Source of the DNA: Nitratiruptor sp. YY09-18
GTDB taxonomy: Bacteria; Campylobacterota; Campylobacteria; Campylobacterales; Nitratiruptoraceae
NCBI RefSeq assembly: GCF_016593235.1
Contig: NZ_AP023065.1
Span: 744,001-808,000, forward strand
Direction of reading: 5' to 3'
DNA: 64,000 nt
Shown here: positions 22,044 through 47,492 of the stretch, piece by piece
Numbering within the stretch: position 1 is the stretch's first letter
Layout of the letters: the number at the start of each line of letters is the position of its first letter
The notes under the pieces: model-generated
The model's database searches: none
Seen by the model: only the letters and a program-made list of their open reading frames with translations
Told to the model about the DNA's origin: nothing
Program-made: the position numbers and the translations under genes

Positions 22044-22083
22044 CTATCCTCACAAATAACCAAAATTTAATATTTTTTTCGAT

Positions 22084-22089: not shown

Positions 22090-22116
22090 AAACAAAAAAA
22101 TTAAGAGCCAAAATAT

Positions 22117-23478: not shown

Positions 23479-26261
<2,783 letters not shown>

Positions 26262-26265
<4 letters not shown>

Positions 26266-27353: not shown

Positions 27354-27354
27354 G

Positions 27355-28596: not shown

Positions 28597-28597
28597 T

Positions 28598-32315: not shown

Positions 32316-32320
32316 TTTAT

Positions 32321-32960
32321 TCTAAACTACTTTAGAATTTGGCTTAAGAATAGTTTAGTACAAAAAAAAGCTAAAATAGTTCGATATGAAGGGTAAAAAT
32401 AGATACATCAAAAAAGTTCATATAACAGAGAGAAAATTTAAGGAGATTTTACGATGTTTCTGTTTGGATTTGACAGCTAAACAAACATCTAAAGTCACAA
32501 AAGTTAATTGTAATACAATCAATAGATATTTCAATAAAACAAGAGAGCGAATTATGAAGCTTTGCCAAACAGATTCTCCATTCAAAGAAGAAATAGGAGT
32601 TGATAAGAGCTATTTTGGGGCAAAAAGAGACATTATAAGCTACTATTCGAGGAAAATTTCAATTGATATTATAATTTATTCAGATAAGTGGAGAGGATAT
32701 GATGAACTTGTTGATATTGGCTATGATAAAGATTTTAGAGTCAAATATGGAAATAACGAATTTGCAAAAAGTAAGAACCATATCAATGGAATAGAATCTT
32801 TTTGGAATTATGCTAAAATGTGGCTGTATAAATTTAGAGGTCTTTCAAAGAATAAATTTAATTTACACTTAAAAGAGTATAAGTTTAGGTTCAATACTCG
32901 TCATAATGAGTTTCAACACTTATAAAATAATTTGAAAACAAACCTCTAAATTAGTCTCGA
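32321..32960 (+). mobile_element. IS1595-family insertion sequence remnant with terminal inverted repeats
   Basis: An internally deleted transposase gene lies between imperfect inverted repeats. The left end TCTAAACTACTTTAGAATTT (32321 onward) matches the reverse complement of the right end at 32939-32960 (TCGAGACTAATTTAGAGGTT) at about 17 of 22 positions. I see no clear flanking target duplication. It lies in the AT-rich polysaccharide segment between the frameshifted gene and the next glycosyltransferase. Confidence 0.7.
32386..32925 (+). pseudogene. IS1595-family transposase with internal deletion
   Basis: 179 residues without a stop, yet shorter than the usual 220-240. The N-terminal zinc/HTH-like part (NRYIKKVHITERKFKEILR, TINRYFNKTRERI) and EIGVDKSYFGAKR are present, followed abruptly by IDIIIYSDKWRGYDELVDIG and the C-terminal NHINGIESFWNYAKMWLYKF. 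The stretch normally between the first catalytic Asp segment and the second (about 50-60 residues) is missing, in frame. It is unlikely to be an active transposase by itself. Confidence 0.82.
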
Positions 32961-32980
32961 CCCAATAATAAAATAAAATC

Positions 32981-33002
32981 ACTAAATATATACTAAATAT
33001 AT
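32981..33002. repeat. Tandem 11-bp repeat, two copies, upstream of a glycosyltransferase promoter
   Basis: ACTAAATATAT occurs twice in direct succession, ending 14 bases before a TATAAT box. It may be a small operator or a chance repeat in AT-rich DNA. Confidence 0.55.
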
Positions 33003-33016
33003 ATCTATATAAAGAC

Positions 33017-33022
33017 TATAAT
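33017..33022 (+). promoter_or_regulatory. Putative promoter (-10 TATAAT) for the glycosyltransferase at 33.1 kb
   Basis: TATAAT 34 bases upstream of the ATG at 33056. The IS remnant lies upstream, so genes from here on probably use this promoter rather than read-through. Confidence 0.45.
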
Positions 33023-33055
33023 GCCAAATAAACTTAAAAAGGTGTTAACAAAGCT

Positions 33056-34267
33056 ATGAAAAAAAATATTTGGATAATTAATGAATATGCAGGTTCACCA
33101 TATCATGGAATGGAATTTAGGCATTATTATTTAGGTAAAGAACTTATTAAACTTGGATACGATGTAACAATAATAACTGCCTCTTTTTCTCATCTTTTTA
33201 AAAATCTTCCCAAAGTAGAAAATAGATTCAAATTGGAAAATATTGATGGTATAAATTACTTATGGATAAAAGTTCCTCAATATTCAAAATCTTGGGATAA
33301 AAAAAGAGTTTTGAAATGGCTAAAATTTGCATATTATTTATTTAAATTACCATTCGATAAATTATCTAAACCAGACTATATTATTCTTTCGCCTATGAAT
33401 ACTTTACCTGTTATTCCTTCTTATAGATTAGCAAAGAAATTTTCTGCTAAATTTATTTTTGAAGTGAAGGATATATGGCCTCTTTCGATAATTGAACTTG
33501 GAAACTATTCTTTCAATAATCCATTTATTAAACTTCTAAAGTATTGTGAAAATTTTGCTATAAAAAAATCAGACTTATTAATTTCTGTCTTACCAAACTA
33601 TAGAGAATACCTCAAGGATAATGGATTCGATAAAGATTTTGTTTATATTCCCAATGGTATTTACTTAGAAGATAAGAAAACAATAGAACCTCTGTCTAAT
33701 GATATAAGAAATCAAATTCCAAAAGATAAATTTATAGTTGCCTATACTGGAACTATTGGAATTGCAAATGCTTTAGAGTATCTAATTGAAGCAGGAAAGC
33801 TATTAAAGGATAAAGATATATTAATTCTGATAGTCGGAGAAGGAGGAGAAAAAGAAAAATTAAAAAAATTAGTTAAAGGGTATGAAAATATAAAACTTTT
33901 ACCACCTATTCCTAAAGGACAGGTTCAAAATTTATTAAATTTAGTAGATATTTGCTATATAGGTTGGAGGAATAAAAAAATATATAAATATGGAATTTCA
34001 CCTAATAAGATTTTTGATTATATGTATGCTGGGAAACCAATAATTCATTCGATTAACACAAAGAACGATATTGTATCTATAGCAAAATGTGGAATATCAG
34101 TTGAAGCAGAAAATCCTAAAGCTATTGCAGATGCTATTTTAAAGTTATATAAAATGTCACCTGATGAAAGGAAAAAAATTGGTGAAAATGGGAAAAAGTA
34201 TGTTATTGAAAATCATAGTTACGAAAATATTGCTAAAAAATATATAAAATATTTAAAAGAGCTATAA
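33056..34267 (+). CDS. Glycosyltransferase family 4, WbuB-like
   Basis: 403 residues of GT-B fold. The N-terminus IWIINEYAGSPYHGMEFRHY and FIFEVKDIWPLSIIELG resemble the WbuB subgroup that transfers N-acetylated deoxy-amino sugars. The C-terminal half has VAYTGTIGIANALEYLIEAG and SPNKIFDYMYAGKPIIHSI. Donor identity is only suggested by the neighbouring dehydratase and aminotransferase genes. A 116-base gap with a 24-codon frame of no evident meaning follows. Confidence 0.85.
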   Translation: MKKNIWIINEYAGSPYHGMEFRHYYLGKELIKLGYDVTIITASFSHLFKNLPKVENRFKLENIDGINYLWIKVPQYSKSWDKKRVLKWLKFAYYLFKLPFDKLSKPDYIILSPMNTLPVIPSYRLAKKFSAKFIFEVKDIWPLSIIELGNYSFNNPFIKLLKYCENFAIKKSDLLISVLPNYREYLKDNGFDKDFVYIPNGIYLEDKKTIEPLSNDIRNQIPKDKFIVAYTGTIGIANALEYLIEAGKLLKDKDILILIVGEGGEKEKLKKLVKGYENIKLLPPIPKGQVQNLLNLVDICYIGWRNKKIYKYGISPNKIFDYMYAGKPIIHSINTKNDIVSIAKCGISVEAENPKAIADAILKLYKMSPDERKKIGENGKKYVIENHSYENIAKKYIKYLKEL

Positions 34268-34383
34268 CTTAACTAATTAAGGTATATCAATATGTACTTG
34301 ATAGAAATATTTTATAAAAAAGTATTAAAAAATCTCCACCATATTATGCAAAATATTCTTTATTAACGATAATTTGGAAGCCT

Positions 34384-34794
34384 ATGAGAAAATTTATCAA
34401 TGTAGTGATTATTCCAAACGTCCCTTTTTCAAAATTAAGGGTGATTTTATATAAGGCTATAGGCTATAAAATAGGAAAAAAAGTTTTTATAGGAATGAAA
34501 TGCTATTTAGATGATATGGATCCTTCTAAAATTATTATTGAAGATAATGTAACAATATCTTATGGAGTTTACTTTGCTTGTCATGGAATAAATCAAAAAC
34601 ATACCCACATTCTGATTAAAAAAGGAGCTTACATAGGGATGAGAGCAACTATTATTTCGGGTAAAAATGGAATAGTCATAGGTGAGAATTCTATAATTGG
34701 TGCAGGTAGTCTGGTGAATAAAAGTGTAGAAGATAATGTGTTAGTTGCTGGAGTTCCAATAAAAAAATTAAAAAGAGTGAAAAAATATGAATAA
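34384..34794 (+). CDS. Hexapeptide-repeat acyltransferase
   Basis: 136 residues, mostly left-handed beta-helix repeats (KIGKKVFIGMKCYL, then VTISYGVYFACHG, AYIGMRATIISGKNGIVIGE), ending GAGSLVNKSVEDNVLVAGVP. The acetyl-CoA binding C-terminus and the catalytic-type His in ACHG are in place. It probably N- or O-acetylates the sugar made by the two genes downstream. It overlaps the aminotransferase gene by eight bases. It is shorter than PglD-type enzymes and lacks their N-terminal Rossmann domain. Confidence 0.8.
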   Translation: MRKFINVVIIPNVPFSKLRVILYKAIGYKIGKKVFIGMKCYLDDMDPSKIIIEDNVTISYGVYFACHGINQKHTHILIKKGAYIGMRATIISGKNGIVIGENSIIGAGSLVNKSVEDNVLVAGVPIKKLKRVKKYE

Positions 34795-35950
34795 AATTAC
34801 AAAATATATAATTAAAAATGTTGCTCAACTAGGTAGAACTGTAAATTTCATACCTCTACATGCACCGATTTTTGAAGGGAATGAAATAGAGTATGTAACA
34901 GATTGCATAAAGTCAAATTTTGTTTCAAGTGTAGGAGAATATGTAAATAAGTTTGAAAAAGCTATTTGTAAATATACTGGAGCTAAATATGCAATATTAA
35001 CAGTAAATGGAACTGCCGCTTTACATGTTTCTCTTTTATTAGCAGGTGTGGGAGAAAATGATGAAGTTTTAATGCCTGCTCTTACATTTATAGCAACTGC
35101 AAATGCCGTTAGTTATATCAAAGCAATTCCTCATTTTATTGATGTAGAAGAAAAAAGTTTAGGAATAGATGCTGATAAATTAGATGAATATTTACATACT
35201 ATTACTTTGATAGAAAATGGAGTTTGTATAAACAAGAATACAAAAAGAAAAATTAAAGCAATTGTTCCAATGCATACATTTGGACATCCGGTAGATATGG
35301 ATAAATTAAAAAAGGTTGCAGAAAAATATAATTTAGAAATAGTAGAGGATGCTGCAGAAAGTTTAGGTAGTTTTTATAAAGGGGTTCATACTGGTAATAT
35401 TGGTAAATTAGCAGCAATTAGTTTTAATGGAAATAAAATAATTACAACAGGTGGTGGTGGATGTATTCTGACTAATGATGAGGAATTGGCAAAAAAAGCA
35501 AAACATATTACTACAACTGCTAAAGTTCCTCATCCTTGGGAATATGAACACGATATGATAGGGTACAATTATAGAATGCCGGCACTAAATGCCGCACTTG
35601 GATTAGCACAAATTGAAAAACTATCTGAATTTATTGAAAAGAAAAGAAGATTGGCAAAAAAATATAAAGAAATTTTTGATGATTTTAAAGAATTTACATT
35701 TTTTACAGAACCTGATTATGCAAAAAGTAATTATTGGCTAAATGCAATTGTTTTAAATAAAGGATACGAACATTTAAGGGATGAGATACTTAAAGAAACA
35801 AATGAGAATGGAATTATGACAAGACCTGTTTGGAAATTGATACATCACTTAAAAATGTTTAAAAATTGTCCGAGAATGGATCTTAGTGTTAGTGAAAGTT
35901 TGGAAAAAAGAGTTATCAATATTCCAAGTTCAGCATATTTAGGAGAATAA
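34787..35950 (+). CDS. PLP-dependent sugar aminotransferase, LegC-like
   Basis: 387 residues of the DegT/DnrJ/EryC1 family, in the LegC-like subgroup: FIPLHAPIFEGNEIEYVTDC at the N-terminus, LTVNGTAALHVSLLLAGVG, EIVEDAAESLGSFYKG with the PLP Asp, and the Schiff-base lysine in ISFNGNKIITTGGGGC. With the 4,6-dehydratase downstream it should place an amino group at C4 of a UDP-4-keto-6-deoxy-HexNAc. No LegG, LegI or LegF homologues are visible, so I infer a 4-amino-4,6-dideoxy sugar rather than full legionaminate synthesis here. Confidence 0.83.
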   Translation: MNKITKYIIKNVAQLGRTVNFIPLHAPIFEGNEIEYVTDCIKSNFVSSVGEYVNKFEKAICKYTGAKYAILTVNGTAALHVSLLLAGVGENDEVLMPALTFIATANAVSYIKAIPHFIDVEEKSLGIDADKLDEYLHTITLIENGVCINKNTKRKIKAIVPMHTFGHPVDMDKLKKVAEKYNLEIVEDAAESLGSFYKGVHTGNIGKLAAISFNGNKIITTGGGGCILTNDEELAKKAKHITTTAKVPHPWEYEHDMIGYNYRMPALNAALGLAQIEKLSEFIEKKRRLAKKYKEIFDDFKEFTFFTEPDYAKSNYWLNAIVLNKGYEHLRDEILKETNENGIMTRPVWKLIHHLKMFKNCPRMDLSVSESLEKRVINIPSSAYLGE

Positions 35951-37135
35951 ATGAATATTTTAAAATTAATAGGTAGAAGTAGTGAGCTTTTTGAAGATGA
36001 TATCAAAAAATATGGAAAAGAATTGGATAGGAATGTAATAAATTCTAAATTTTTAGTTGTTGGTGGTGCAGGGAGCATTGGAAGTGCTGTCGTAAAAGAG
36101 ATTTTTAAAAGAAATCCTAAAAAATTGCATGTTGTAGATATTAGTGAAAACAATTTAGTTGAATTAGTAAGAGATATCAGAAGTTCACTTGGATATATTG
36201 ATGGAGAATTTGCCACTTTTGCTTTAGATATAGGTAGTGAAATTTATGATAAATTTATAAAAGATGATGGGGATTATGATTATGTTTTAAATTTGAGCGC
36301 ATTGAAGCATGTAAGAAGTGAGAAAGATCCTTATACATTAATGAGAATGATTGATGTAAATATATTTAATACAGATAAAACTATATCGCAGAGTATTGAA
36401 AAGGGAAGTAAAAAATATTTTTGTGTTTCAACTGATAAAGCGGCAAATCCAGTTAATATGATGGGGGCAAGCAAAAGAATAATGGAAATGTTTTTAATGA
36501 GAAGAAGTTTAGAAATTCCTATTTCTACTGCAAGATTTGCTAATGTCGCTTTTAGCGATGGAAGTTTGCTTTATGGATTTAACAGAAGAATTGAGAAAAG
36601 ACAACCTATTTCTGCACCAAAAGATATTAGAAGATATTTTGTAACGCCTAAAGAAAGTGGGGAATTATGTTTAATGAGTACAATTTTTGGAGAAAATAGA
36701 GATATATTTTTTCCAAAATTGAGTGATAAATTACATTTAATTACTTTTGCTGATATTGCTGTTAAATATTTAAATGAATTAGGATATGAAGCTTATGAAT
36801 GTGAAAGTGAAGAGGAAGCAAGAGAATTAGTAAAAACTTTACCAGAAAAAGGAAAATGGCCTGTATATTTTTTTAATTCTGATACAACTGGAGAGAAAGA
36901 TTTTGAAGAGTTTTATACAGGAGAAGAAGAAATTGATTGGGATAAATTTGAAAATATAGGAGTAATTAAAAATGAACCTATTTTTGATGGAGAAAAGTTA
37001 GATTATTTTACTTGGAAAATAGAAAGATTCAAAGAAAAAGGATGGAACAAAAAAGAATTAGTTGATCTATTTAATTTTATGATTCCAAATTTTAATCATA
37101 AAGAGACTGGTAAATATCTGGACCAAAGGATGTAA
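35951..37135 (+). CDS. UDP-N-acetylglucosamine 4,6-dehydratase (CapD/PglF-like, soluble)
   Basis: 394 residues of the extended short-chain dehydrogenase family. The NAD motif is FLVVGGAGSIGSAVVKEIF; ALKHVRSEKDPYTLM and STDKAANPVNMMGASKRIME are the CapD/FlaA1 signatures, the catalytic Tyr being replaced by Met as in that subfamily (NMMGASK). No membrane helices are present, unlike PglF. It starts at the base after the aminotransferase stop. The product would be a UDP-4-keto-6-deoxy-HexNAc, substrate for the LegC-like enzyme. Confidence 0.83.
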   Translation: MNILKLIGRSSELFEDDIKKYGKELDRNVINSKFLVVGGAGSIGSAVVKEIFKRNPKKLHVVDISENNLVELVRDIRSSLGYIDGEFATFALDIGSEIYDKFIKDDGDYDYVLNLSALKHVRSEKDPYTLMRMIDVNIFNTDKTISQSIEKGSKKYFCVSTDKAANPVNMMGASKRIMEMFLMRRSLEIPISTARFANVAFSDGSLLYGFNRRIEKRQPISAPKDIRRYFVTPKESGELCLMSTIFGENRDIFFPKLSDKLHLITFADIAVKYLNELGYEAYECESEEEARELVKTLPEKGKWPVYFFNSDTTGEKDFEEFYTGEEEIDWDKFENIGVIKNEPIFDGEKLDYFTWKIERFKEKGWNKKELVDLFNFMIPNFNHKETGKYLDQRM

Positions 37136-37137
37136 GG

Positions 37138-37818
37138 ATGCAAGATAAATTTATAAGATTTTTTGATATATTTTTTTCTTCTTTAGCACTTCTTGTATTA
37201 TCTCCTCTTTTAGTACCTGTTATGATTATTTTAAAATTAACTGGGGAAGGAGAAGTATTTTATCTTCAAGAGAGAATAGGTAAAGATGGAAAACCTTTCA
37301 AACTTATTAAATTTGCTACTATGCTCAAAAATTCTCCAAATATAGGAACTGGTACAGTGACAGTAAAAGATGATCCAAGAGTATTGCCTTTTGGAAAATT
37401 TTTGCGAAAAACAAAAATTAATGAACTCCCCCAACTCATCAATATTCTTAAGGGTGAGATGAGTATTATTGGGCCTCGTCCACAAACCCCACGATGTTTT
37501 GCTGCATTTCCGCTAAAATCACAAGAAATCATCAAAAAAGTCAAACCTGGACTATCGGGAATTGGATCTATTGTATTTCGTGATGAAGAGAGTATACTTG
37601 ATGATCCTAAAATTGATAGATTGAAATTTTATGATGAAGTTATAGCACCATACAAAGGTAAACTTGAAGAGTGGTATGTAAAACATCAAAATTTATATAC
37701 ATACTTCATGCTTATTTTCTTAACTATTTGGGTTGTATTGTTTCCAAATAGTAAAATATATAAATTAATTTTCAAAGATTTACCACAGCCACCAAATGAT
37801 TTAAAAAAATGGCTATAA
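37138..37818 (+). CDS. Initiating sugar-phosphate transferase (PglC/WcaJ-type, bacterial sugar transferase)
   Basis: 226 residues of the monotopic phosphoglycosyl transferase family. One N-terminal hydrophobic segment (FIRFFDIFFSSLALLVLSPL), then EVFYLQERIGKDGKPFKLIKF, TKINELPQLINILKGEMSII and GPRPQT, all hallmark motifs. It would transfer a sugar-1-phosphate, plausibly the 4-amino-4,6-dideoxy sugar from the preceding genes, to undecaprenyl phosphate. It converges with the fusion gene, whose stop is only four bases away. Confidence 0.9.
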   Translation: MQDKFIRFFDIFFSSLALLVLSPLLVPVMIILKLTGEGEVFYLQERIGKDGKPFKLIKFATMLKNSPNIGTGTVTVKDDPRVLPFGKFLRKTKINELPQLINILKGEMSIIGPRPQTPRCFAAFPLKSQEIIKKVKPGLSGIGSIVFRDEESILDDPKIDRLKFYDEVIAPYKGKLEEWYVKHQNLYTYFMLIFLTIWVVLFPNSKIYKLIFKDLPQPPNDLKKWL

Positions 37819-37821
37819 ATT

Positions 37822-40533
37822 TCAAATGAGCTTTCTTTTGAGTTTGTCATATCTCCATACATACCAACTACAAAAAATTAAAAATACTATAATTTGCGCA
37901 AAATCACTCCAATAAAATATTGTCGCTATTAGCATAAAAATTGAAACTCTTTTGAGAATGTAGAGAGAAGTTTGTGGATTGTTTTTAGTTATATTTCTAA
38001 AAATAAGTTGATGGAGGTGATTATTGTCATGAAGGGTTGCTTCTCTTTTTTCTAAAAATTTTCTGCGATAAATGCTAAAGATTACTTCAAATACTGGATA
38101 GATGAGAACGCCAAGTGGATACCATTGTGAGACTTGATCTGGGTGCTGATGATGAAGCATGAGTGCAATAGTAGCGAGAGAAAAACCTAAAAAATATGCT
38201 CCACCATCTCCCAAAAAGATTTTGCCTTTTGGGAAGTTGAGGGCGAGAAATCCTATGAGAGCAGCGATATTGATGATGATGAGCTCAAGTAGTGCCATAT
38301 CATCCACTTTGAAAGCCACATATCCTAGTGATAAAAACGCAAGAAGAGAGAATCCTCCAGCCAAACCATTGAATCCATCGATGATGTTGATAGCGTTGAT
38401 TACACCGGTGATAGCTATGATGCTAAGTACTGCTCCAAGCCAATATGGGATCTGGATACCAAAACCGATACTATCTATTACAGCATCAAGCAAAAATACA
38501 GCTAAACTTGCTGATATGACTTGAAAGACAAGTCTCACCTTTGGAGAGATGGAGCTAAAATCATCCATGAGCCCGGCAAAAAATGCCGGAAAGCTTGCCA
38601 GCAAAAATTTCCAGCCTATAGGGTTGAATATAACCAGCAAGTTTGTCAGATAAATACCGATACCACCAGCCCTTGGGGTAGGGGCTTCGTGAAAAAGCTG
38701 AGGCTTGTTGGTAAGCTCATCTACAAGAAGTCCTTGACTTAAGCTTTGTCTAATGACATGCCTATGCATGAGAAAAGATATGAGCACTCCCAGAGCACTG
38801 AGCCAAATGGCTGTGGAAATGATAAGAGATGAGTGCTGTTGAAAAGCAGGGAAAACTTGCGTAAATTTTGCTATGACAAAATCTTTGATAAAGGAGATAT
38901 TTGCGATATGAAAAGGAAGGAGTAAAAGCATCAATAGAATAGTATAACGCAAGATTTGTGCAAATCTTATCCGAATAGCTGGAGTGTAGTTGTAGTTGTG
39001 TGTGAGTTCTGCTGCCATGAAGACCAGGAGCCAGAAGATGATGGCTACCGGTTGAGTATATGTAATGACCTGGACATTGCCATAGATAAAAGCTGCTAAT
39101 AGTGAAGCAAAGATTATAAGTCCTATGATAGAGACTTCAAGTTGCGGCTGGGTAAGCTCCTTTTTTATGAGTTTATAAAAAAGCGAGAAGAATAGGGCTA
39201 TGAGAAATATAAGCCCAAATATCCCTTTGCCCACTAATGTTTCAAGATAGATATTATGGGCTGTACCGAACTGTCCAAGTGATAGAGTATTTGTCTTATC
39301 ATCATGCCATTTGGCATCTTTTTGGTAATAGTAGACTTTGTACTGCCAGCCAAAGCTATCTCCTCCAGCTCCAAAGAGAGGATTTTCACCATAGAGCTTG
39401 AATGCTGGTGGCCAGTGCTTGAGCCTATCATTTGCTTGCGTGATACGCTTGGCTTTGCCTGTGGCTTCGATGACACTTTTGGCAAAGTTTTGCTGATTGA
39501 TATGTTTGATCCCATAGACGATGAGCACAGAGAGAGAGACTGTAAGAGGGATGGTGATAAAGACTTTGAGCCAATATTTGCGCAAAAATGTTTTAAGCTC
39601 TATGAAAGGATCTTTCGTCTTTGCAAAGATGTAGTAGACCATCACCCAGATGATAAAGAGAATAGGTGGATAGGTGATCCACGCCCCTCTCTCCATAGCG
39701 AGGATGAGCCCAACTTCTCCAATGATGAGCAAAAGGACAAGTACCGCAATCGCATACCAGGTTTTACGAACATAGAGCAGTATGATTGCCAGTAGTGGCA
39801 TCATGAGCGAGAGATACTGAGCTGTCCATGTGGAGTTTGGAAAAAATGAAACAAATCTTGTAGCAGTATCATCTGGCCTAAAATGAGAAAGGCTGAAAAT
39901 TCCAAAAAAGTCCAGATATCCAAAAATGATGACCAAAAACCATCCAGCTACAAGTGAGAGCAGGATATTTTTAAAGATCTCAAGCTGGTTGGAAGGTTTG
40001 GTGATGCCGTAGATATAGAGACCGATGAGCATTGCTTGAAATAAAAAGATCTGTGAAGAGATGGAGTAAAAGAGTGTCGTTTCACCTACTGGCAAGAGCT
40101 GTTTGATGACATAGAGGGGATCTTCAGTGATACTATGCTTGATGGCTCCAAGGATTGGAAGTCCTATGAGGCTAAGCAACGATACGACTGCAAAAAGAGC
40201 CACAAAAAGGGTAATCGCATTTGGCTCTATAATTTTAGCCCAAAATCTTTTGCAAAGTCTTTCGTTTTTATAGAGATTGCTGTAGAGCCCTATAATGATA
40301 GTGGCTGCCAAGAAATAGAGAAAATGCGCCTGCGTATCGGGAGGCCTCGAACCAAATATGGGCATAACCATGAGTAAAAAGTAAAGAACTTGCAAAGGAT
40401 AGAGATATGCCAAAAATCCTATATAAGAAGCTATTATGACCCACCAAAAGGGGAGGTTGAAAAGACCACTGAGAATAATCCAACCTTGCGTAAAAAGGAC
40501 GAAATAGAAAAAATATTTGATAAATTTTTGCAT
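37822..40533 (-). CDS. Fusion of an O-antigen ligase/polymerase-like domain with a WecA/MraY-like transferase
   Basis: A continuous 903-residue polytopic protein. Residues about 1-520 form a Wzy_C-type domain with ~11 helices and the periplasmic loop motifs YGENPLFGAGGDSFGW (~385) and FGTAHNIYLETLVGKGIFG (~428). Residues about 580-900 form a polyprenyl-phosphate N-acetylhexosamine-1-phosphate transferase: EAPTPRAGGIGIYL (~614), AGLMDDFSSISPK (~655), NAINIIDGFNGLAGG (~718), FLGDGGAYFLGF (~778) and DNNHLHQLIF (~838), the conserved Asp and His motifs of WecA/MraY. So one chain appears to combine the initiating and the terminal membrane step of glycan assembly. Base composition is like the core genome, unlike the adjoining AT-rich block. 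Confidence 0.85.
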   Translation of the reverse strand: MQKFIKYFFYFVLFTQGWIILSGLFNLPFWWVIIASYIGFLAYLYPLQVLYFLLMVMPIFGSRPPDTQAHFLYFLAATIIIGLYSNLYKNERLCKRFWAKIIEPNAITLFVALFAVVSLLSLIGLPILGAIKHSITEDPLYVIKQLLPVGETTLFYSISSQIFLFQAMLIGLYIYGITKPSNQLEIFKNILLSLVAGWFLVIIFGYLDFFGIFSLSHFRPDDTATRFVSFFPNSTWTAQYLSLMMPLLAIILLYVRKTWYAIAVLVLLLIIGEVGLILAMERGAWITYPPILFIIWVMVYYIFAKTKDPFIELKTFLRKYWLKVFITIPLTVSLSVLIVYGIKHINQQNFAKSVIEATGKAKRITQANDRLKHWPPAFKLYGENPLFGAGGDSFGWQYKVYYYQKDAKWHDDKTNTLSLGQFGTAHNIYLETLVGKGIFGLIFLIALFFSLFYKLIKKELTQPQLEVSIIGLIIFASLLAAFIYGNVQVITYTQPVAIIFWLLVFMAAELTHNYNYTPAIRIRFAQILRYTILLMLLLLPFHIANISFIKDFVIAKFTQVFPAFQQHSSLIISTAIWLSALGVLISFLMHRHVIRQSLSQGLLVDELTNKPQLFHEAPTPRAGGIGIYLTNLLVIFNPIGWKFLLASFPAFFAGLMDDFSSISPKVRLVFQVISASLAVFLLDAVIDSIGFGIQIPYWLGAVLSIIAITGVINAINIIDGFNGLAGGFSLLAFLSLGYVAFKVDDMALLELIIINIAALIGFLALNFPKGKIFLGDGGAYFLGFSLATIALMLHHQHPDQVSQWYPLGVLIYPVFEVIFSIYRRKFLEKREATLHDNNHLHQLIFRNITKNNPQTSLYILKRVSIFMLIATIFYWSDFAQIIVFLIFCSWYVWRYDKLKRKLI

Positions 40534-40557
40534 AGAAGCTCTTTAGATTTTTATGAA

Positions 40558-40563
40558 ATTATA
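40558..40563 (-). promoter_or_regulatory. Putative promoter of the fusion gene (-10 TATAAT)
   Basis: On the minus strand TATAAT is preceded by TGGC, about 25 bases upstream of the gene start; no -35 box is seen. Confidence 0.45.
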
Positions 40564-40617
40564 GCCAAAAGTGGATTTCTAAAGGCTTATGGATTTTGTT
40601 TTTCGGAATTTTGGTAG

Positions 40618-40685
40618 TAGATCCTTCGGCTGACGCCTCAGGATGACTGTGGTTCGTTATCTTGAGCGAAGCGAAAGATCTATGA
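40618..40685. repeat. Dispersed hairpin repeat, full unit (left border of mazEF)
   Basis: First half TAGATCCTTCGGCTGACGCC then TCAGGATGAC; second half GTTATCTTGAGCGAAGCG then AAAGATCTATGAT. The second half is an inverted relative of the first, so the unit can fold into a long imperfect hairpin. It is nearly identical to the copy at 42195-42263. Confidence 0.85.
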
Positions 40686-40711
40686 TATAATAAGTATATA
40701 CAAAGTATATA
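40686..40711 (+). promoter_or_regulatory. Putative mazEF promoter with two direct repeats (possible MazE operator)
   Basis: TATAAT at 40686-40691 is followed by AAGTATATA at 40692-40700 and again at 40703-40711, 11 bases apart, covering the expected transcript start. One-helical-turn spacing would suit binding by an AbrB-type dimer, in line with the usual autoregulation of mazEF. Confidence 0.45.
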
Positions 40712-40721
40712 AGGATAGAAA

Positions 40722-40952
40722 ATGACAGTCAAAATCAATAAATGGGGCAATAGCTATGGTATTAGACTTTCCAAACAGATATTGAAGAGTCTCGATCTTC
40801 AAGAAAATAGCGAAGTCGATATTGAAATTAGAGAGGGGAAAATAATTCTTATTCCCAAGAAATCTTTACAATCGCTCTTATCACAAATAACTCCACAAAA
40901 TATTCATCGTGAAATAGATTTTGGTGATATGCAAGGAAAAGAGCTGCTATGA
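40722..40952 (+). CDS. mazE: MazE-type antitoxin (AbrB/SpoVT swapped-hairpin domain)
   Basis: 76 residues. The N-terminal half is the classic DNA-binding fold: VKINKWGNSYGIRLSKQIL and DIEIREGKIILIPK. The C-terminal acidic tail ending FGDMQGKELL would occupy the MazF groove. Four-base overlap with the downstream toxin gene and an AAGGA ribosome site support translation as a pair. Confidence 0.92.
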   Translation: MTVKINKWGNSYGIRLSKQILKSLDLQENSEVDIEIREGKIILIPKKSLQSLLSQITPQNIHREIDFGDMQGKELL

Positions 40953-41284
40953 GTTATATTCCTGAGCGTGGTGATATCGTTTGGGTCGAGCTCAATCCTC
41001 AAAAGGGACATGAACAAGCAGGGCATAGGCCTGCATTGATTCTCTCACCATATGAATACAATAAGAAAGTTGGTCTATGTATCGCCTCTCCTATTACATC
41101 CAAAAGTAAAGGGTATCCTTTTGAGGTAGCTATAGCTGGAAAGATTCAAGGAGTTGTGCTCTCTGATCAAGTAAGGACTCTTGATTATCGTGCAAGGAAT
41201 GTCGCTTTTGTAGAAAAGGTCGATGAGGAAGTATTAGAAAAAGTACTTGAAAAATTGAAGTTGTTATTGTTTGATATGGGATAA
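40949..41284 (+). CDS. mazF: MazF-type endoribonuclease toxin
   Basis: 111 residues of the PemK/MazF family: PERGDIVWVELNPQKGHEQA, GHRPALILSPYEYNKKVG, IASPITSKSKGYPFEV, VVLSDQVRTLDYRARN. The conserved Arg, Thr/Ser and QVR residues associated with mRNA cleavage are present, so it is probably active. Cleavage specificity cannot be predicted. Confidence 0.93.
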   Translation: MSYIPERGDIVWVELNPQKGHEQAGHRPALILSPYEYNKKVGLCIASPITSKSKGYPFEVAIAGKIQGVVLSDQVRTLDYRARNVAFVEKVDEEVLEKVLEKLKLLLFDMG

Positions 41285-41289
41285 GGAAG

Positions 41290-41412
41290 TAGATCTTTCG
41301 CTTTTGGCTCAGGGTAATGAAAGTTTGTCATCTTGAGCGAAGCGAAAGATCTATGATTGATCGGTAGATAAAGTAGATCCTTCGGCTAAGCCTCAGGATG
41401 ACTGCTTTTTTT
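41290..41412. repeat. Cluster of three hairpin-repeat half-units between mazEF and mntA-hepT
   Basis: Half-units lie at 41290-41319 (TAGATCTTTCGCTTTTGGCT), 41327-41357 (GTCATCTTGAGCGAAGCGAA) and 41372-41403 (TAGATCCTTCGGCTAAGCCT). The last can fold (ATCCT with AGGAT, GGC with GCC) and is followed by seven T at 41406-41412, so it may also act as a terminator for mazEF. Confidence 0.75.
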
Positions 41413-41435
41413 ACTTAAAATCCATAATAGTTTGA

Positions 41436-41441
41436 TAAAAT
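41436..41441 (+). promoter_or_regulatory. Putative mntA-hepT promoter (TGA plus TAAAAT)
   Basis: TAAAAT preceded by TGA (extended -10), 28 bases upstream of the mntA start. Confidence 0.35.
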
Positions 41442-41469
41442 AAAAAGAGACAAGAGTAAGGAATATACG

Positions 41470-41754
41470 ATGCGGCTCAGCGAAAAAGAGATAAAGGTTT
41501 TAAAAGAAAAGCTTCATTCTATCTCTCCTGATGCGAAGATTTACCTCTTTGGAAGTAGGACAGATGATAGCAAAAGAGGAGGGGATATAGATCTTTTGAT
41601 AGTAGGAGAGAATATCACAAGAAAAGATTTAAGAGCTTTGCGGGTGGAGTTTTATAAACATTTTGGAGAGCAAAAAATCGATATTGTTCTTGATAATAAA
41701 AGAAGTAAAAATGCTTTTATCGAAATAATACGTAAGCAAGCAGTCGAGTTATGA
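41470..41754 (+). CDS. mntA: MntA-type minimal nucleotidyltransferase antitoxin
   Basis: 94 residues. The pol-beta core FGSRTDDSKRGGDIDLLIVG has Gly-Ser at 28-29 and metal-binding aspartates at 39 and 41 (GS-x9-DxD). MntA enzymes neutralise HepT by attaching AMP to a tyrosine near its active site. The stop overlaps the hepT start (ATGA), the usual arrangement of this toxin-antitoxin family. Confidence 0.9.
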   Translation: MRLSEKEIKVLKEKLHSISPDAKIYLFGSRTDDSKRGGDIDLLIVGENITRKDLRALRVEFYKHFGEQKIDIVLDNKRSKNAFIEIIRKQAVEL

Positions 41755-42191
41755 TGTATGAAAAGCTTTTAGAAGACAAAAGACTTCTTGAAAAACAGCT
41801 CTTTTGGATACGCTATTCTGTCAATGAATGCAAAAGTATTGGGATTAAAAATTGTTACACTCCAGAAGAATTTGGCAAATTTGAAACTTTGTGTGCCAGG
41901 TATAGTAGAGGAATCGATTTTCTTATCAGAAAGATATTTCGCTCCATAGAGATTTATGAATTTGAAAATCCAGGAACGCTCATCGATATTGTAAACAATG
42001 CTCATAAACGGGGGCTTTTTGAAGATATAGAAGAGCTAAGAATAATGAAAGATTTGCGTAATGATATAGTGCATGAGTATATTGAAGAAAATTTTATCGA
42101 GATATTCGATGAAGTTTTGATGTATAGTGAAAAATTGATCGAGATTATGGAAAATACATTGCGATATCTGCAAGAGTTAGAAAATAGATAA
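41751..42191 (+). CDS. hepT: HepT-type HEPN ribonuclease toxin
   Basis: 146 residues, all helical. RNDIVHEY gives Arg103, His108 and Tyr110, exactly the RX4HXY motif of HepT toxins: Arg and His are the ribonuclease residues and Tyr is the residue AMPylated by MntA. The downstream helix is LRYLQELENR. This pair is intact, in contrast with the broken MNT/HEPN pair at 21.2 kb. Two ATG codons in a row (41751, 41754) leave the exact start open by one codon. Confidence 0.9.
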   Translation: MMYEKLLEDKRLLEKQLFWIRYSVNECKSIGIKNCYTPEEFGKFETLCARYSRGIDFLIRKIFRSIEIYEFENPGTLIDIVNNAHKRGLFEDIEELRIMKDLRNDIVHEYIEENFIEIFDEVLMYSEKLIEIMENTLRYLQELENR

Positions 42192-42194
42192 TTA

Positions 42195-42263
42195 TAGATC
42201 CTTCGGCTGACGCCTCAGGATGACTGTGGTTCGTCATCTTGAGCGAAGCGAAAGATCTATGAT
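42195..42263. repeat. Dispersed hairpin repeat, full unit (right border of mntA-hepT)
   Basis: Matches 40618-40685 over its length with essentially one difference (GTCATC here, GTTATC there). Together the two copies form direct repeats about 1.6 kb apart that enclose both toxin-antitoxin pairs. Confidence 0.85.
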
Positions 42264-42315
42264 AAATATCTAAAAGAAACTTCCAAATATCTCTCATTAC
42301 AACGAGTAATTATAG

Positions 42316-42321
42316 TATAAT
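42316..42321 (+). promoter_or_regulatory. Putative promoter of the DUF4143 ATPase gene (-10 TATAAT)
   Basis: TATAAT 28 bases upstream of the ATG at 42350. Confidence 0.45.
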
Positions 42322-42349
42322 AATGCTCATCATAACGAAAGAATAAGAA

Positions 42350-43660
42350 ATGGAAAAAGAAAAAATCATAGAAATTCTCAATGAATGGAATTATTGGAAT
42401 AGACCATTGCCTTTTACCTATTCAAGAGAAAAGTATGAGAGTGAAATAGATAAGAAATATAAAACGGGAGAGATTATTTTTTTAAAAGGTGTGAGAAGAA
42501 GTGGTAAATCTACAATTTTGATAAATCACATAAAAAATCTTTTGAATGAAGGTGTCGCAAAAGAAAATATACTTTTCGTAAATCTTGAAGATCCTAGATT
42601 CGCTCCCTATTTAAATCTAGAACTGTTAGAAGAGATAAAAAATGCATATATTTACTATTTAAATCCACGAAGCAAACCTCATATTTTTTTGGATGAAATC
42701 CAAAATATCGATGAATTTGAAAAGTGGTTATTAAAAGAGTATGAACTAAAAAGCAGTTTTTTATATGCAACCGGCTCAAATTCAAAACTATTGAGCAAGG
42801 AAATAGGCTCTTCTCTAAGTGGCAGATATTTAGATATTTTGGTCTATCCTTTGAGTTTCAAAGAGTTTCTCTCTTTTAAAGGTAAAAGAGTTTCAAATGA
42901 ATTTGAATATATCACTAATAAACTTGAAATAGAGAGACTTTTTGAAGAGTTTATGAATTATGGTGGATTCCCAAAAATAGTTTTGACAGAAGATAGCGAA
43001 ACCAAAAAAGCGGAGCTTAAAAGCTATTTTGACTCTATTTTGTTGAGAGATATCGTTGCAAGATATAAGCTGGACAACTTTTTGAAATTGGAACAGTTAG
43101 CTATATTATTGCTCTCAAATATCTCAAATCTCGTATCGAACAATAAGTTAAAAAATATTTTACAAGTATCTTATGAAACGATAGAGAAATATTTTGAATA
43201 TTTACAAAATGCTTTTTTGATTTTTACTGTCAAAAAGTTTGACTGGTCTTTGAAAAAGCAGATGGCCAACGCCAAAAAAGTCTATTCCATAGATATAGGG
43301 CTATCGAAAAGAGTCTCATTTGAAGTCGGTAAAAAAAAGGGAGATCTGCTCGAAAATATCGTATTTTTAGAATTAAAAAGAAGATATGAGGAGATTTTTT
43401 ATTATAAGACAAAAGAAAATTATGAAGTAGATTTTCTTATTAAAGAAAATGAACTTTTGACTCATCTTATCCAAGTAAGCGTAACGTTGAATGACGAAAA
43501 AACTCTCAAAAGAGAGATAAGATCCTTGATAAAAGCAAAACAAGAGCTGCGTTGTGATGCAAAACTGATGATTTTGACCATGGATGAAAGTAGAAAAATG
43601 AATATTGAAAGCGAAGAAGTTGAGATTGTAAATATTATTCAATGGCTTTTGTTTTCGTAA
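42350..43660 (+). CDS. AAA-family ATPase with DUF4143 C-terminal domain
   Basis: 436 residues. The ATPase half (AAA_14) has Walker A LKGVRRSGKSTILINH and Walker B PHIFLDEIQNI, then sensor-like LYATGSNSKLLSKEIG. The C-terminal DUF4143 part resembles a PD-(D/E)xK nuclease fold (NYEVDFLI, then HLIQVSVTL), with Gln and Ser where active nucleases carry Glu and Lys, so it is probably catalytically dead. These proteins are common in accessory DNA; their role is not established. It is bordered by the same repeat on both sides. Confidence 0.87.
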   Translation: MEKEKIIEILNEWNYWNRPLPFTYSREKYESEIDKKYKTGEIIFLKGVRRSGKSTILINHIKNLLNEGVAKENILFVNLEDPRFAPYLNLELLEEIKNAYIYYLNPRSKPHIFLDEIQNIDEFEKWLLKEYELKSSFLYATGSNSKLLSKEIGSSLSGRYLDILVYPLSFKEFLSFKGKRVSNEFEYITNKLEIERLFEEFMNYGGFPKIVLTEDSETKKAELKSYFDSILLRDIVARYKLDNFLKLEQLAILLLSNISNLVSNNKLKNILQVSYETIEKYFEYLQNAFLIFTVKKFDWSLKKQMANAKKVYSIDIGLSKRVSFEVGKKKGDLLENIVFLELKRRYEEIFYYKTKENYEVDFLIKENELLTHLIQVSVTLNDEKTLKREIRSLIKAKQELRCDAKLMILTMDESRKMNIESEEVEIVNIIQWLLFS

Positions 43661-43689
43661 TCTATGCCGTCTGATATGCGATATAAGAT

Positions 43690-43769
43690 AGAGATCCTTC
43701 GGCTGATGCCTCAGGATGACGAAGGGTGTCATCCTGAACGCATGTGAAGGATCTCGTCATCTTGAGCTT
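43690..43769. repeat. Dispersed hairpin repeat, rearranged unit
   Basis: 43690 onward reads AGAGATCCTTCGGCTGATGC then CTCAGGATGAC (first half), then an inverted variant GTCATCCTGAACGCATGTGA ending in GGATCTC, then the start of a third half (GTCATCTTGAGC). It sits between the convergent DUF4143 and wzz genes. Confidence 0.75.
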
Positions 43770-43835
43770 GTATCTTTATTTGACTTCAGCGATTGAGGAT
43801 TTTATTGAGAAAATACTCTCTTATCATCGCTAAAT

Positions 43836-44981
43836 TCATTCATTTTCTTTTTTTGGTTCACTTTTTAAAAATTCAAGAAAAAAGACCAAAAATACTCCAA
43901 GAATCAGACCGGTAATAAGAGCGACAACCAAAATGAGCTTTTTCTTGGGTTTTGTAGGTTTATCAAATGTTTGAATATCCCCTACAAATCTACTTGGTGA
44001 GATATAGGCTTCAGTAAGTTTATAGCGTAAAGACTCGATATTATCTTGCAGTTTTGGAATCTCTATTTTGAGAATTTTCTCTTTTTGTCTTTGGAGATTT
44101 GGGATCGTTTCTTTGAGAATTTTCTCTTTTTGTCTTTGGAGATTTGGGATCGTTTCTTTGAGAATTTTCTCTTTTTGCAATGCAAGATCATTGATTTGGA
44201 GTTGTCTTGAGTAGATCATATTTTGATAGTTGGATATCTGGACAAGAGTAAGAGCTATGAAAGCTTTGTCCTGAGCATTTTGTATGCTATCTTGGAGGTT
44301 TTGAATGTTTTTTTCAAATTTCTCTATCTGTTTTTTAGCTATTTCGATCTTTTTTTCAATGTTTGGGACCATCTCTTTTTGGTAAAGAGCAATTTTGTCA
44401 TCTAATTGGGCTAGGTTTTGTTTTTTTATGAGTATGATTTGGTCATCTATCTTTTTGATATCGACAAGTTTGAGCTTATCGATATCTCTTTGGGTTTTGT
44501 CTATTTGGGCTTGGATATCTTTTTTGAAGTGTTCGATTTTGAGTTTTTCATCTTTACGGACATAGTTAAGCACTTCTTTAATCTTGTTGACTGCTTTTTC
44601 ATTAGAAACCCCATAAGCAGTAATATCTATGAGTTTGTCTACCTTTTTTACAGGATTGACACTATCGACGAACGCTTCTTTGTCAATTTTCTTTTGCAAA
44701 GGTGAGCCTACATAAAAGACTGTTTTGATTTTTTGTGCGACAATATTTGCCTTTTCGATAGGTTTATCTCCAATATAGCCTATTTGCATGAGAGTTTTTG
44801 CCTGATAGAGCGGTGTTTTGATAAATATATAAGCTAAAGCTATAAGGAAGACTATTATAGTTACTTTATAGATGGTTTTTCTATTTTTTTTGATTGTTTC
44901 CCATAACTGCCAAAGATCTATCTCATCCTCTTCAGTTGGACAATTTTGTACAATGAGCTGGACAGGTTGTTTCTCTTCCAT
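43836..44981 (-). CDS. wzz: Wzz-type polysaccharide chain-length determinant
   Basis: 381 residues: a cytoplasmic N-terminus, a first membrane helix (about 38-57, TIYKVTIIVFLIALAYIFIK), a large periplasmic part of coiled-coil helices (about 150-320) and a second helix near the C-terminus (LILVVALITGLILGVFLVFF). No tyrosine kinase domain is present. The periplasmic coil contains a perfect tandem duplication of the 15 residues KETIPNLQRQKEKIL. Proteins of this class set the length distribution of O-antigen or capsule chains with Wzy. It is transcribed towards the repeat at 43.7 kb. Confidence 0.85.
   Translation of the reverse strand: MEEKQPVQLIVQNCPTEEDEIDLWQLWETIKKNRKTIYKVTIIVFLIALAYIFIKTPLYQAKTLMQIGYIGDKPIEKANIVAQKIKTVFYVGSPLQKKIDKEAFVDSVNPVKKVDKLIDITAYGVSNEKAVNKIKEVLNYVRKDEKLKIEHFKKDIQAQIDKTQRDIDKLKLVDIKKIDDQIILIKKQNLAQLDDKIALYQKEMVPNIEKKIEIAKKQIEKFEKNIQNLQDSIQNAQDKAFIALTLVQISNYQNMIYSRQLQINDLALQKEKILKETIPNLQRQKEKILKETIPNLQRQKEKILKIEIPKLQDNIESLRYKLTEAYISPSRFVGDIQTFDKPTKPKKKLILVVALITGLILGVFLVFFLEFLKSEPKKENE
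44070..44177. repeat. 45-bp in-frame tandem repeat inside wzz
   Basis: Two identical 45-base units (44070-44114 and 44115-44159) starting GAGAATTTTCTCTTTTTGTC, followed by the first 18 bases of a third. Each adds 15 residues to the coiled coil; a more diverged unit adjoins on the C-terminal side. Confidence 0.9.
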
Positions 44982-45127
44982 ATAAATTCCCTTAATTTTT
45001 TTGTAGTAATGATATCTTAATGAAAATTAGAGAGAGATTAGATAAAAAAGATTGACGAAATAGGTGGAAAAGCAAAATGAAAAAGAAGCTTACGAAGTTG
45101 AGAATTTTTTGTAGTAAAATTGGTGTC

Positions 45128-45165
45128 TTGGCAAGACTGGGTCTAGCGATCAACCGGTTTATCCT
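45128..45165 (-). pseudogene. Degraded tRNA fragment (3' half of a tRNA-Met-like gene)
   Basis: TTGGCAAGACTGGGTCTAGC onward aligns with the antisense of the 3' half of the neighbouring tRNA (45183-45217) at roughly 25 of 33 positions, including CAACCGGTT. The T loop is altered and no 5' half follows, so it cannot fold as a tRNA. Confidence 0.65.
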
Positions 45166-45166
45166 C

Positions 45167-45263
45167 AGAATGCTCGGTGGGCTCGGCAGGACTCGAACCT
45201 GCGACCAACCGGTTATGAGCCGGTTGCTCTAACCAACTGAGCTACGAGCCCACCGAACATTCT
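45167..45263. repeat. 19-bp inverted repeat enclosing the tRNA
   Basis: AGAATGCTCGGTGGGCTCG at 45167-45185 is the inverse of 45245-45263 with one difference. In the minus-strand RNA the difference becomes a G-U pair, so the seven-pair acceptor stem would continue for 12 more pairs into the leader and trailer. Confidence 0.85.
45178..45251 (-). tRNA. tRNA with CAT anticodon, probably elongator tRNA-Met
   Basis: On the minus strand GGGCTCGTAGCTCAGTTGG begins a full cloverleaf: acceptor GGGCTCG/CGAGCCC, D arm, anticodon stem ACCGG/CCGGT with loop CTCATAA, T arm with GTTCGAGTC. The discriminator is A; the following CCG shows that CCA is not encoded. The D arm resembles elongator Met tRNAs; a lysidine-type tRNA-Ile (CAT) cannot be ruled out. 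Confidence 0.93.
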
Positions 45264-45291
45264 TGCGGAGTTGTCGTCTAAGGACTCGGAC

Positions 45292-45330
45292 GATCCGTTT
45301 GCTCTAATCAACTAAGCTATAAGCTCATGA
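45292..45330 (-). pseudogene. Degraded tRNA fragment (5' half of a tRNA-Met-like gene)
   Basis: GATCCGTTTGCTCTAATCAA onward aligns with the antisense of the anticodon stem, D arm and acceptor 5' strand of the intact tRNA at about 30 of 39 positions. AAGGACTCGGAC just to its left (45280-45291) recalls the T arm, with the piece between T arm and anticodon missing. No normal anticodon loop can form. Confidence 0.65.
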
Positions 45331-45358: not shown

Positions 45359-46462
45359 TTAATTATGGCTGGAATTATACAAAAATCTATAGCGAAATGC
45401 AAGAAGATGCTCTAAAATCCCAAAAAGTATCATAAAATTGATGAAGCTGCTACCGCCATAGCTAAAGAGCGGCAGAGGTACTCCTACAACAGGTGCAAGG
45501 CCTATGGTCATTGCAATATTGACACTCATATATGTAAATAGCATCAATGCAATAGATGCTGCGACAACTTGTGTGAAGAGGTCACGCTTGAACTTGAGGG
45601 ATATAGAAAAGATATGCAAAATCAAAAGTGCATAGAGCAGCACCAGACCAACTGCTCCAAAAAATCCAAACCTTTCTACAAAATATGCAAAAATAAAGTC
45701 ACTCGTAGCAATTGGAAGGAAGCGAAGCTTCGTCTGGGTTGCTTCCTCTTTTGGCTTACCACTTAGACCTCCAGAGCCTATAGCGATGATGGATTGCTGT
45801 ACATGGTAGCTAGGCTTTTTACTCAAAAAATCTTCAATGCGCTTCTTTTGATAATCATGGAGGAGATATTTATACGATATTGGGATCATAAGCACTGCAG
45901 CCAATACAAGTGTAGCCCAAATTTTCCAGTTGACTCCCACTAAAAAGAGCACGCCAAAGCCTATAATGAGCAAAACTGTCGCAGTTCCAAGGTCGGGTTC
46001 TTTTGCTATGAGAATAAATGGCAAGAGGATATAGAAGCTAATTTTGAAAAAATCTTTCCAACCATAGCCATTTTTTGGAGGAGGATTGTTGTGAATCACA
46101 TATGCTAGCATGAGAATAAAGGCTGGCTTGAAAATCTCAGAGGGCTGGATTGTAAAATGTGTGAAGGGAATCGCTAGCCACCGTTTAGCTCCAAGTTTGC
46201 TCACTCCAAAAAGATCTACGCTAATGAGCAACAAGATATTAAACCAATAGATAAGAGGAATGAGCCATTTATACTCACGTATTGGCATCAAAAATACAAA
46301 AACAAAAGCTCCAAAGCCGATGAGGTAGTAAATGAGCTGCTTTTTTGCAAGGATTGGATGGACATCTGCTATGAGATAATTAGAGATTACCAATAGTGGT
46401 AATATAAGCACCAAAAGGACAAAATCAAAATGTGTTAATATTCGTCTATCGATCCAGAACAT
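45359..46462 (-). CDS. rodA: Rod shape-determining protein RodA (SEDS glycosyltransferase)
   Basis: A polytopic peptidoglycan polymerase of the elongation machinery, working with PBP2. With the ATG at 46462 it has 367 residues and about ten helices. SEDS motifs are present: GAKRWLAIPFTHFTIQPSEI, AKEPDLGTATVLLIIGFG, and PVVGVPLPLFSYGGSSFI. The frame is open to 46531, but the -10 box at 46479-46484 lies inside that extension and MFWIDRR is the natural N-terminus. It is divergent from the rluD-like gene. It reads towards the tRNA, so the two may share a transcript. Confidence 0.92.
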   Translation of the reverse strand: MFWIDRRILTHFDFVLLVLILPLLVISNYLIADVHPILAKKQLIYYLIGFGAFVFVFLMPIREYKWLIPLIYWFNILLLISVDLFGVSKLGAKRWLAIPFTHFTIQPSEIFKPAFILMLAYVIHNNPPPKNGYGWKDFFKISFYILLPFILIAKEPDLGTATVLLIIGFGVLFLVGVNWKIWATLVLAAVLMIPISYKYLLHDYQKKRIEDFLSKKPSYHVQQSIIAIGSGGLSGKPKEEATQTKLRFLPIATSDFIFAYFVERFGFFGAVGLVLLYALLILHIFSISLKFKRDLFTQVVAASIALMLFTYMSVNIAMTIGLAPVVGVPLPLFSYGGSSFINFMILFGILEHLLAFRYRFLYNSSHN

Positions 46463-46478
46463 AGTCTCTTTTTGGAAA

Positions 46479-46484
46479 ATTATA
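46479..46484 (-). promoter_or_regulatory. Putative rodA promoter (-10 TATAAT)
   Basis: TATAAT on the minus strand, 16 bases upstream of the rodA ATG at 46462, giving a leader of about ten bases. Confidence 0.45.
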
Positions 46485-46502
46485 TCTTTTGAAGGATTAA
46501 TA

Positions 46503-47492
46503 TTGACTAAGGAGTTTGTGGCACAAAGCAAACAGCGCCTTGATAAGTACCTGAGTGAGGCTCTTGGTGAGAGTCGCAGTCAGATAGAGCAGCTCATCAA
46601 AAAGGGATATGTGAGTGTAAATGGGTTGGTTGTTACAAAGCCAGGATTTACTCTCAAACCTTCTATGCATATCCACATCACTCTCCCTAGGCCACAAGAG
46701 ACGCAGAATAAAGAAGTAGATTTTGAAGTTGCCAAAATTTATGAAGATAATGATATCCTCGTTATCAACAAACCTGCAGGCGTGGTTGTCCATCCAGCCC
46801 CGAGCGTCAAAGAGCCTACACTTGTTGATTGGCTCAAAAAGGAGGGAATTCGTCTCTCAACGATTAGTGGAGAAGAGCGTCATGGCATAGTGCATAGAAT
46901 CGATAAAGAGACAAGCGGTCTGCTTGTTATCGCAAAAAATAATGAAGCACATCTAAAGCTCAGTGAGCAGCTACAAGATAAGAGTATGGGGCGCTACTAT
47001 CTAGCAATCATTGAGCCACCACTCAAAAACAATATAATTGTAGATCGACCTCTGGGGCGCAATCCAAAAAATCGCCTCAAAATGTCGATAATAGAGGGTG
47101 GAAGAGAAGCAAAGAGCGCATTTGCCAAAATTTTTGAGTCTAAAAATAGCAAATATGAACTCATAGCCGCCAAACTCTTTACCGGGCGCACGCATCAGAT
47201 ACGCGCCCATTTGGCATCGTTGCATCGCCATATTTTGGGTGATCGTTTATACGGCTTTAAGAGCAAAAAAGATACAATACCAAGAGTATTTTTGCATGCG
47301 TACATTCTCTATCTACGCCATCCTAGAAGTGGCAAATATTTGGAATTTGTTGCTCCATTGGCGCAAGATATGATGCAGTTTTTACAAAATAATTTTGATC
47401 AGGAGAAATTAGATGAAAAAATTCATCCTCACAATGTCGTCTCTCTTTTTGATTTTTCTAGCGGGGTGTGGGTTACAGCCGACTCCACATAA
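46503..47492 (+). CDS. 23S rRNA pseudouridine synthase, RluD family
   Basis: 329 residues. An N-terminal S4 domain (KQRLDKYLSEALGESRSQIE) precedes the synthase core with VINKPAGVVVHPAP, the catalytic Asp motif HGIVHRIDKETSGLLVIAK and GRTHQIRAHLASLHRHILGD. I take the TTG at 46503 because GAAGGA lies six bases upstream; a GTG at 46518 is an alternative. The last 26 codons run into the flpA-like gene, an 80-base overlap that is long for this genome. Confidence 0.9.
   Translation: MTKEFVAQSKQRLDKYLSEALGESRSQIEQLIKKGYVSVNGLVVTKPGFTLKPSMHIHITLPRPQETQNKEVDFEVAKIYEDNDILVINKPAGVVVHPAPSVKEPTLVDWLKKEGIRLSTISGEERHGIVHRIDKETSGLLVIAKNNEAHLKLSEQLQDKSMGRYYLAIIEPPLKNNIIVDRPLGRNPKNRLKMSIIEGGREAKSAFAKIFESKNSKYELIAAKLFTGRTHQIRAHLASLHRHILGDRLYGFKSKKDTIPRVFLHAYILYLRHPRSGKYLEFVAPLAQDMMQFLQNNFDQEKLDEKIHPHNVVSLFDFSSGVWVTADST

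Follow-up and report, generated by a model that had tools for sequence, protein, structure and literature searches.

How does a tRNA gene come to lie inside remnants of itself, and how could the transcript of such a gene still be matured? This question is raised by a locus in the genome of the deep-sea vent bacterium Nitratiruptor sp. YY09-18 (two contigs, the larger of 1,732,647 bp, 1,757,120 bp in total). Within the window, i.e., the whole stretch of 64,000 nucleotides that was analysed, a tRNA gene with a CAT anticodon is enclosed by an inverted repeat of 19 bp and flanked on both sides by degenerate tRNA pieces. Our results suggest that the locus combines the scar of a mobile-DNA insertion with a later DNA copying error in a tRNA gene of which the genome holds only one copy.

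Identity and anatomy of the nested tRNA gene

The intact gene (45178..45251; this and all other features of the locus described below lie on the (-) strand) runs from G1 to the discriminator A73. It is labelled tRNA-Met by ARAGORN and had also been taken for a tRNA-Met(CAT) in the original prediction, which, however, does not hold. A check of the genome for further CAT tRNA genes, as had been proposed, revealed two others, bringing the number to three: an initiator (CGCGGGG...), an elongator tRNA-Met (GGCTGGG...), and the nested tRNA. We take the first two to be initiator and elongator on the basis of their initiator and elongator acceptor features. Since these are present separately, since TilS is encoded in the genome (TIGR02432, 166.5 bits over the cut-off) and since no tRNA-Ile(TAT) occurs among the tRNAs seen in the genome, the nested gene would, by elimination, be the sole tRNA-Ile2 (CAU), with a lysidine presumed at the level of the mature tRNA. 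The program label tRNA-Met is the usual mislabel of such a lysidine-type tRNA-Ile2. As a single-copy gene, it is presumably essential.

Read along the coding strand, the locus begins with a promoter-like element (TTGCAT-17-TATAAT; 45374..45402), recognised by inspection of the sequence and present in nearly all members of the family, within the 3' end of a rodA/ftsW-like gene (45359..46531), the conserved core neighbour upstream of the tRNA. It is followed by a decayed copy of the tRNA 5' half, from G1 to the region of C34 (45292..45326), the counterpart of which is 100% intact in G020, a relative from another genus, and by an upstream spacer, X (45264..45291), containing a hairpin (TCGTC/GACGA) and in G020 similar to an inverted copy of the 3' half. 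Then come the 5' arm of the rod, AGAATGTTCGGT, at positions -12 to -1 (45252..45263), the tRNA itself, and the 3' arm, ACCGAGCATTCT (45167..45178), which consists of the discriminator A73 and 11 further bases and has CCG in place of CCA. The remainder of the downstream spacer Y (GAGGAT; 45161..45166) separates this arm from a decayed copy of the tRNA 3' half, extending from the anticodon loop to CCA (45121..45160). The similarity of both copies to the tRNA is above chance, with 0 out of 2000 shuffles scoring as high for the 5' half and 1 out of 2000 for the 3' half. The two decayed pieces that had been noted earlier are, therefore, present, but they are not two separate remnants: they are a single outer tRNA split in two, and the intact tRNA is nested in the anticodon loop of this split, decayed copy of itself.

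The precursor rod and its processing

The arms AGAATGTTCGGT and ACCGAGCATTCT form 12 consecutive extra pairs, one of which is G-U, and together with the 7-pair acceptor stem they make up 19 pairs, confirming the extension that had been predicted. Among the 37 tRNAs examined in the genome this is exceptional: the stem continues for 12 pairs past the mature ends in tRNA-Ile2 vs. 0-2 pairs in the other 36, and tRNA-Ile2 is also the only one without an encoded CCA, its encoded 3' end being CCG (the initiator tRNA and the tRNA-Glu of the window, for instance, both encode CCA). Folding of the precursor, as had been suggested, gave z = -8.3 for the precursor piece, and none of 200 shuffles folded as well. 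With the whole leader and trailer included, the fold model predicts that position -1 pairs with A73 with a probability of 1.00 at 37°C and 0.999 at 55°C, in agreement with the pairing expected at the outset.

It is plausible, by analogy with characterised pre-tRNAs, that this rod interferes with RNase P. Pairing of the leader with the RCCA end inhibits the bacterial enzyme, two pairs being the reported threshold, and the slowest dinucleotide tested lowered kcat/Km 13-fold (PMC9433436). The precursor of YY09-18 resembles this RNase P-inhibiting class of pre-tRNAs (PMC9433436, PMC10731613) in that U(-1) faces A73 and G(-2) and G(-3) face two C's, but the substrates in these studies have about two extra pairs, whereas the rod has twelve and no encoded CCA. 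The rod precursor would constitute a natural test of how much acceptor-stem extension bacterial RNase P tolerates, in an essential single-copy tRNA, for which the laboratory comparison is about two extra pairs with the 13-fold loss of rate (PMC9433436).

The genome encodes an A-type RNase P RNA, RNase III, and a CCA-adding enzyme. A protein-only RNase P (HARP) is absent from it, which rules out this enzyme as an escape route for processing. The precursor would be transcribed from the promoter embedded in rodA and would fold as a 19-pair rod capped by the cloverleaf. RNase P could act once the helix has been locally unwound or its base has been cut by an end-nuclease or RNase III, and the CCA end would then be completed by the CCA-adding enzyme. 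Such a route, in which the base of the rod is trimmed or cut, RNase P unwinds the helix, and the CCA-adding enzyme completes the end, would be the most likely mode of maturation.

Distribution among relatives and probable traces of integration

We compared the locus in all 22 genomes of the family (G000 denoting the genome of the window). The full rod, with an extension of 12-13 pairs, occurs in 3 out of 22, i.e., G000, G016, and G020, which belong to two genera. The occurrence of the same flanks in all relatives, which had been named as the finding that would speak against an insertion, was thus not observed. Since the genomes bearing X number only three, two of which (G020 and G016) are near-twins, comparisons among them have little statistical power. 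A downstream scar without the upstream part (tRNA-CCA-AGCATTCTGAGGACA-3' half) is found in G001, G011, G009, G004, G008, and G012 and, in a more decayed form, in G003 and G002, and the remaining family genomes have a plain tRNA-Ile2 site or no recognisable scar. In G020, the outer 5' half is identical to the tRNA at 35 out of 35 positions and its 3' counterpart has remained almost intact, so that the window holds a decayed version of this same arrangement.

Outside the family, X and Y were absent across 399 genomes of the order. This result, together with the lack of an exact match in IMG/VR, led us to reject a mobile element that carries the spacers. A search of GTDB r220 with the spacers returned one match, consistent with G020 itself. 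We likewise rejected phages or plasmids as relatives of the locus in its entirety, since the matches listed covered tRNA-sized stretches only. The same applies to an intron (group I or other) or a ribozyme separating the halves, as 45090-45430 contains no credible Rfam match besides the tRNA, even at E = 10.

Several relatives have only 2.6-5.7 kb between tRNA-Ile2 and tRNA-Glu, but the interval reaches 30 kb in the window and some 41 kb in G016, which makes it an insertion hot spot. In G019, which has a plain tRNA-Ile2 site, a small cytochrome-like gene follows the tRNA directly. In G016, an isolated tRNA 3' half (C1:1177228) precedes this same cytochrome-like gene at a distance of 400 kb from the tRNA, and this displaced half probably marks an integration into the anticodon region of the tRNA that was followed by rearrangement. 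The interval and the displaced half both lend support to the integration and decay that had been put forward for this site. No integrase was found near the tRNA (at 789 kb) in the genome of the window, and the island itself is, therefore, gone from it.

In several respects the locus resembles Islander-class scars with an anticodon-type attachment site (PMC4383910): an intact tRNA is regenerated, a displaced 3' fragment in the same orientation, beginning within the anticodon loop, lies downstream, a core gene occupies one side and variable DNA the other, and relatives retain the plain site (G019 itself, and the displaced half beside the same gene in G016). Phages of the genus, moreover, integrate in tRNA genes, temperate Nitratiruptor phages using tRNA-Asn, tRNA-Arg, and tRNA-Ser (PMC9723563). 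Unlike in that class (PMC4383910), tRNA and fragment enclose neither an integrase nor an island: instead of an integrase-bearing interval of 2-200 kb, only 17 bases separate the two, the spacer amounting to 6 bases beyond the arm. The extra upstream 5' half and the inverted spacer also have no counterpart there and are unexplained by integration alone.

The 30 kb between tRNA-Glu and tRNA-Ile2 (14653..45251 of the window) form a variable island of polysaccharide genes between two tRNA genes. At 40949..42191 it encodes, as judged by eye, a MazF-like protein followed by a nucleotidyltransferase/HEPN-like pair, and close relatives of this pair lie downstream of tRNA-Ile2 in G003. A transposase-like sequence, IS3-like by eye, is located directly downstream of the tRNA in G016 and G020 (L069, L072), and in G016 tRNA-Ile2 also adjoins an IS256-type transposase gene (by eye).

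Origin of the rod and competing explanations

With confidence only a little better than even, we favour an origin in which a site-specific integration left a scar in the single-copy tRNA-Ile2 gene and a templated inverted duplication was later added to it. Integration at tRNA-Ile2 would have displaced a 3' half and so produced the arrangement tRNA - short spacer Y - 3' half. The genomes with only the downstream scar represent this intermediate state without the upstream part, and the displaced half in G016 would be a classic signature of tRNA integration. Integration alone cannot produce the complementary arm or the half that lies upstream, so a second step is needed. Replication would have entered the 5' half of the tRNA and proceeded to about GGCTC in the anticodon loop, where it would have switched, at this microhomology, onto the inverted downstream 3' half, the acceptor end of which reads GGCTCG. 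After copying the 3' half and Y backwards, it would have switched back at the acceptor sequence GGGCTCG and copied the whole tRNA anew. The product would be 5' half - inverted copy - tRNA - Y - 3' half, the outer halves of which decayed later, and because the inverted copy of Y precedes the tRNA, the acceptor stem would necessarily be extended. We infer this order of events, the template switch, and every processing step, whereas the observations comprise the anatomy of the locus, its distribution, the identity of the arms, and the half found displaced in a relative.

The template-switch model predicts that X is the reverse complement of Y plus the 3' half. For the G020 spacer beyond the arm, the colinear alignment with the reverse complement of its own Y and 3' half was bettered by 3 out of 3000 shuffles, and the inverted-copy alignment gave 33 out of 3000 shuffles with a consensus target and 14 out of 5000 with random stretches of the window. 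At the junction at C34, moreover, the outer 5' half of G020 (35 bases, 100%) ends in GGCTC and is followed by the reverse-complement acceptor base G. A template-switch inverted duplication is, on this sequence evidence, the likely source of the upstream part, although this is not proven. The similarity of G000 beyond the arms is not above chance (578 out of 2000 and 896 out of 3000 shuffles), and it counts against the proposed origin that the inverted-copy step would thus depend on G020 and its near-twin G016. Further points against it are that the displaced half of G016 lacks Y and lies 400 kb away, in a picture probably confused by IS-driven rearrangement since the tRNA adjoins IS3- and IS256-type transposase genes, and that genomes without X encode CCA and those with X encode CCG, so that extra changes would be needed.

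The proposed copying step resembles quasi-palindrome or template-switch mutations (PMC3820800, PMC8604942) in its opposite-strand copying between short homologies, here GGCTC and GGGCTCG. It differs in that a whole essential tRNA gene would have been enclosed, re-copied, and kept across two genera. Integration scars and template switching can build a nested gene that annotation takes for an ordinary tRNA, here a mislabelled one, and the locus looks like the scar of a mobile-DNA insertion plus a DNA copying error, persisting in distant relatives, where it would have been retained or spread in the form of a clamped precursor.

What kept the arms intact is a separate matter. They are identical in all three rod genomes (24 out of 24 positions between G000 and G020), and the 27 bases preceding the tRNA contain two differences between these two genomes. 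The outer 5' half, in contrast, is identical at 27 out of 35 positions (Fisher p = 0.016 vs. the arms), and the fourfold sites of rodA are at 36% identity, near saturation. Because the arms are identical between genera while the silent sites of rodA are saturated, either the arms would be under selection or the module would have been transferred after the species split.

Transfer of the whole module (5' half - X - tRNA - Y - 3' half) by ordinary homologous recombination is possible though doubtful. As the ends of the module match any plain tRNA-Ile2 gene, a short fragment can replace the gene of the host. The patchy occurrence in two genera would be explained, and the divergence of the module between G000 and G020 (about 23-33% in the halves) is like that of much closer species pairs, whereas rodA is saturated. 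The rodA of G000 is ordinary for its own genus, so the module alone would have moved. However, the downstream scar occurs widely within one genus clade, a pattern equally compatible with common descent and repeated loss, and gene conversion may homogenise the 77-base tRNA and the halves, making dating unreliable.

Selective maintenance of the rod, serving as a folding clamp, a processing signal, or part of a terminator, with a maturation that uses the helix (RNase III or assisted RNase P), seems to us rather unlikely. As a clamp, the 12 extra pairs would force the inner halves to pair mutually instead of with the flanking copies. Apart from the identity of the arms, in-silico shuffling of the 5' arm speaks for it: the predicted inner acceptor pairing falls from 0.99 to 0.24 in G020 and 0.27 in G016. 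In G016, furthermore, the arm runs directly into TTTTTGTTTTT, a terminator-like end, and everything beyond is lost. In G000, however, whose halves have decayed, the pairing is predicted to change little upon shuffling (0.80). This pattern fits a clamp against intact outer halves but is only suggestive, since the rod-less precursors of G017 (L023; 0.03) and G011 (L013; 0.10) are also predicted to misfold, with a disrupted acceptor stem, so the fold model is not decisive. Leader-RCCA pairing, moreover, slows RNase P in published kinetics (PMC9433436), and there are no compensatory changes, all three arm pairs being identical. The most far-reaching combination, a self-nested module with a selected clamp helix that spread between genera into plain tRNA copies and is matured in a non-standard way as RNase P is blocked, is in our opinion improbable.

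Independent, decayed tandem tRNA duplications, with arms arisen by chance or driven by hairpins, would account for the repeated tRNA pieces but are very improbable, as they would not be expected to place the 5' half exactly in front of the gene and the 3' half exactly behind it, Y is not repeated after the 3' half, and the 12 contiguous pairs are unmatched in the other tRNAs examined; the simple tandem duplication proposed earlier is not supported either, since the second 3' half leads into unrelated DNA and the arms require an inverted-copy step.

Outside the window, a 332-aa frame at C1:444000-445287 gives a weak integrase match. It lies some 0.8 kb from tRNA-Asn, which phage NrS-1 uses as its site in a sister strain, and may be what is left of a prophage in a strain described as having no inducible phage.
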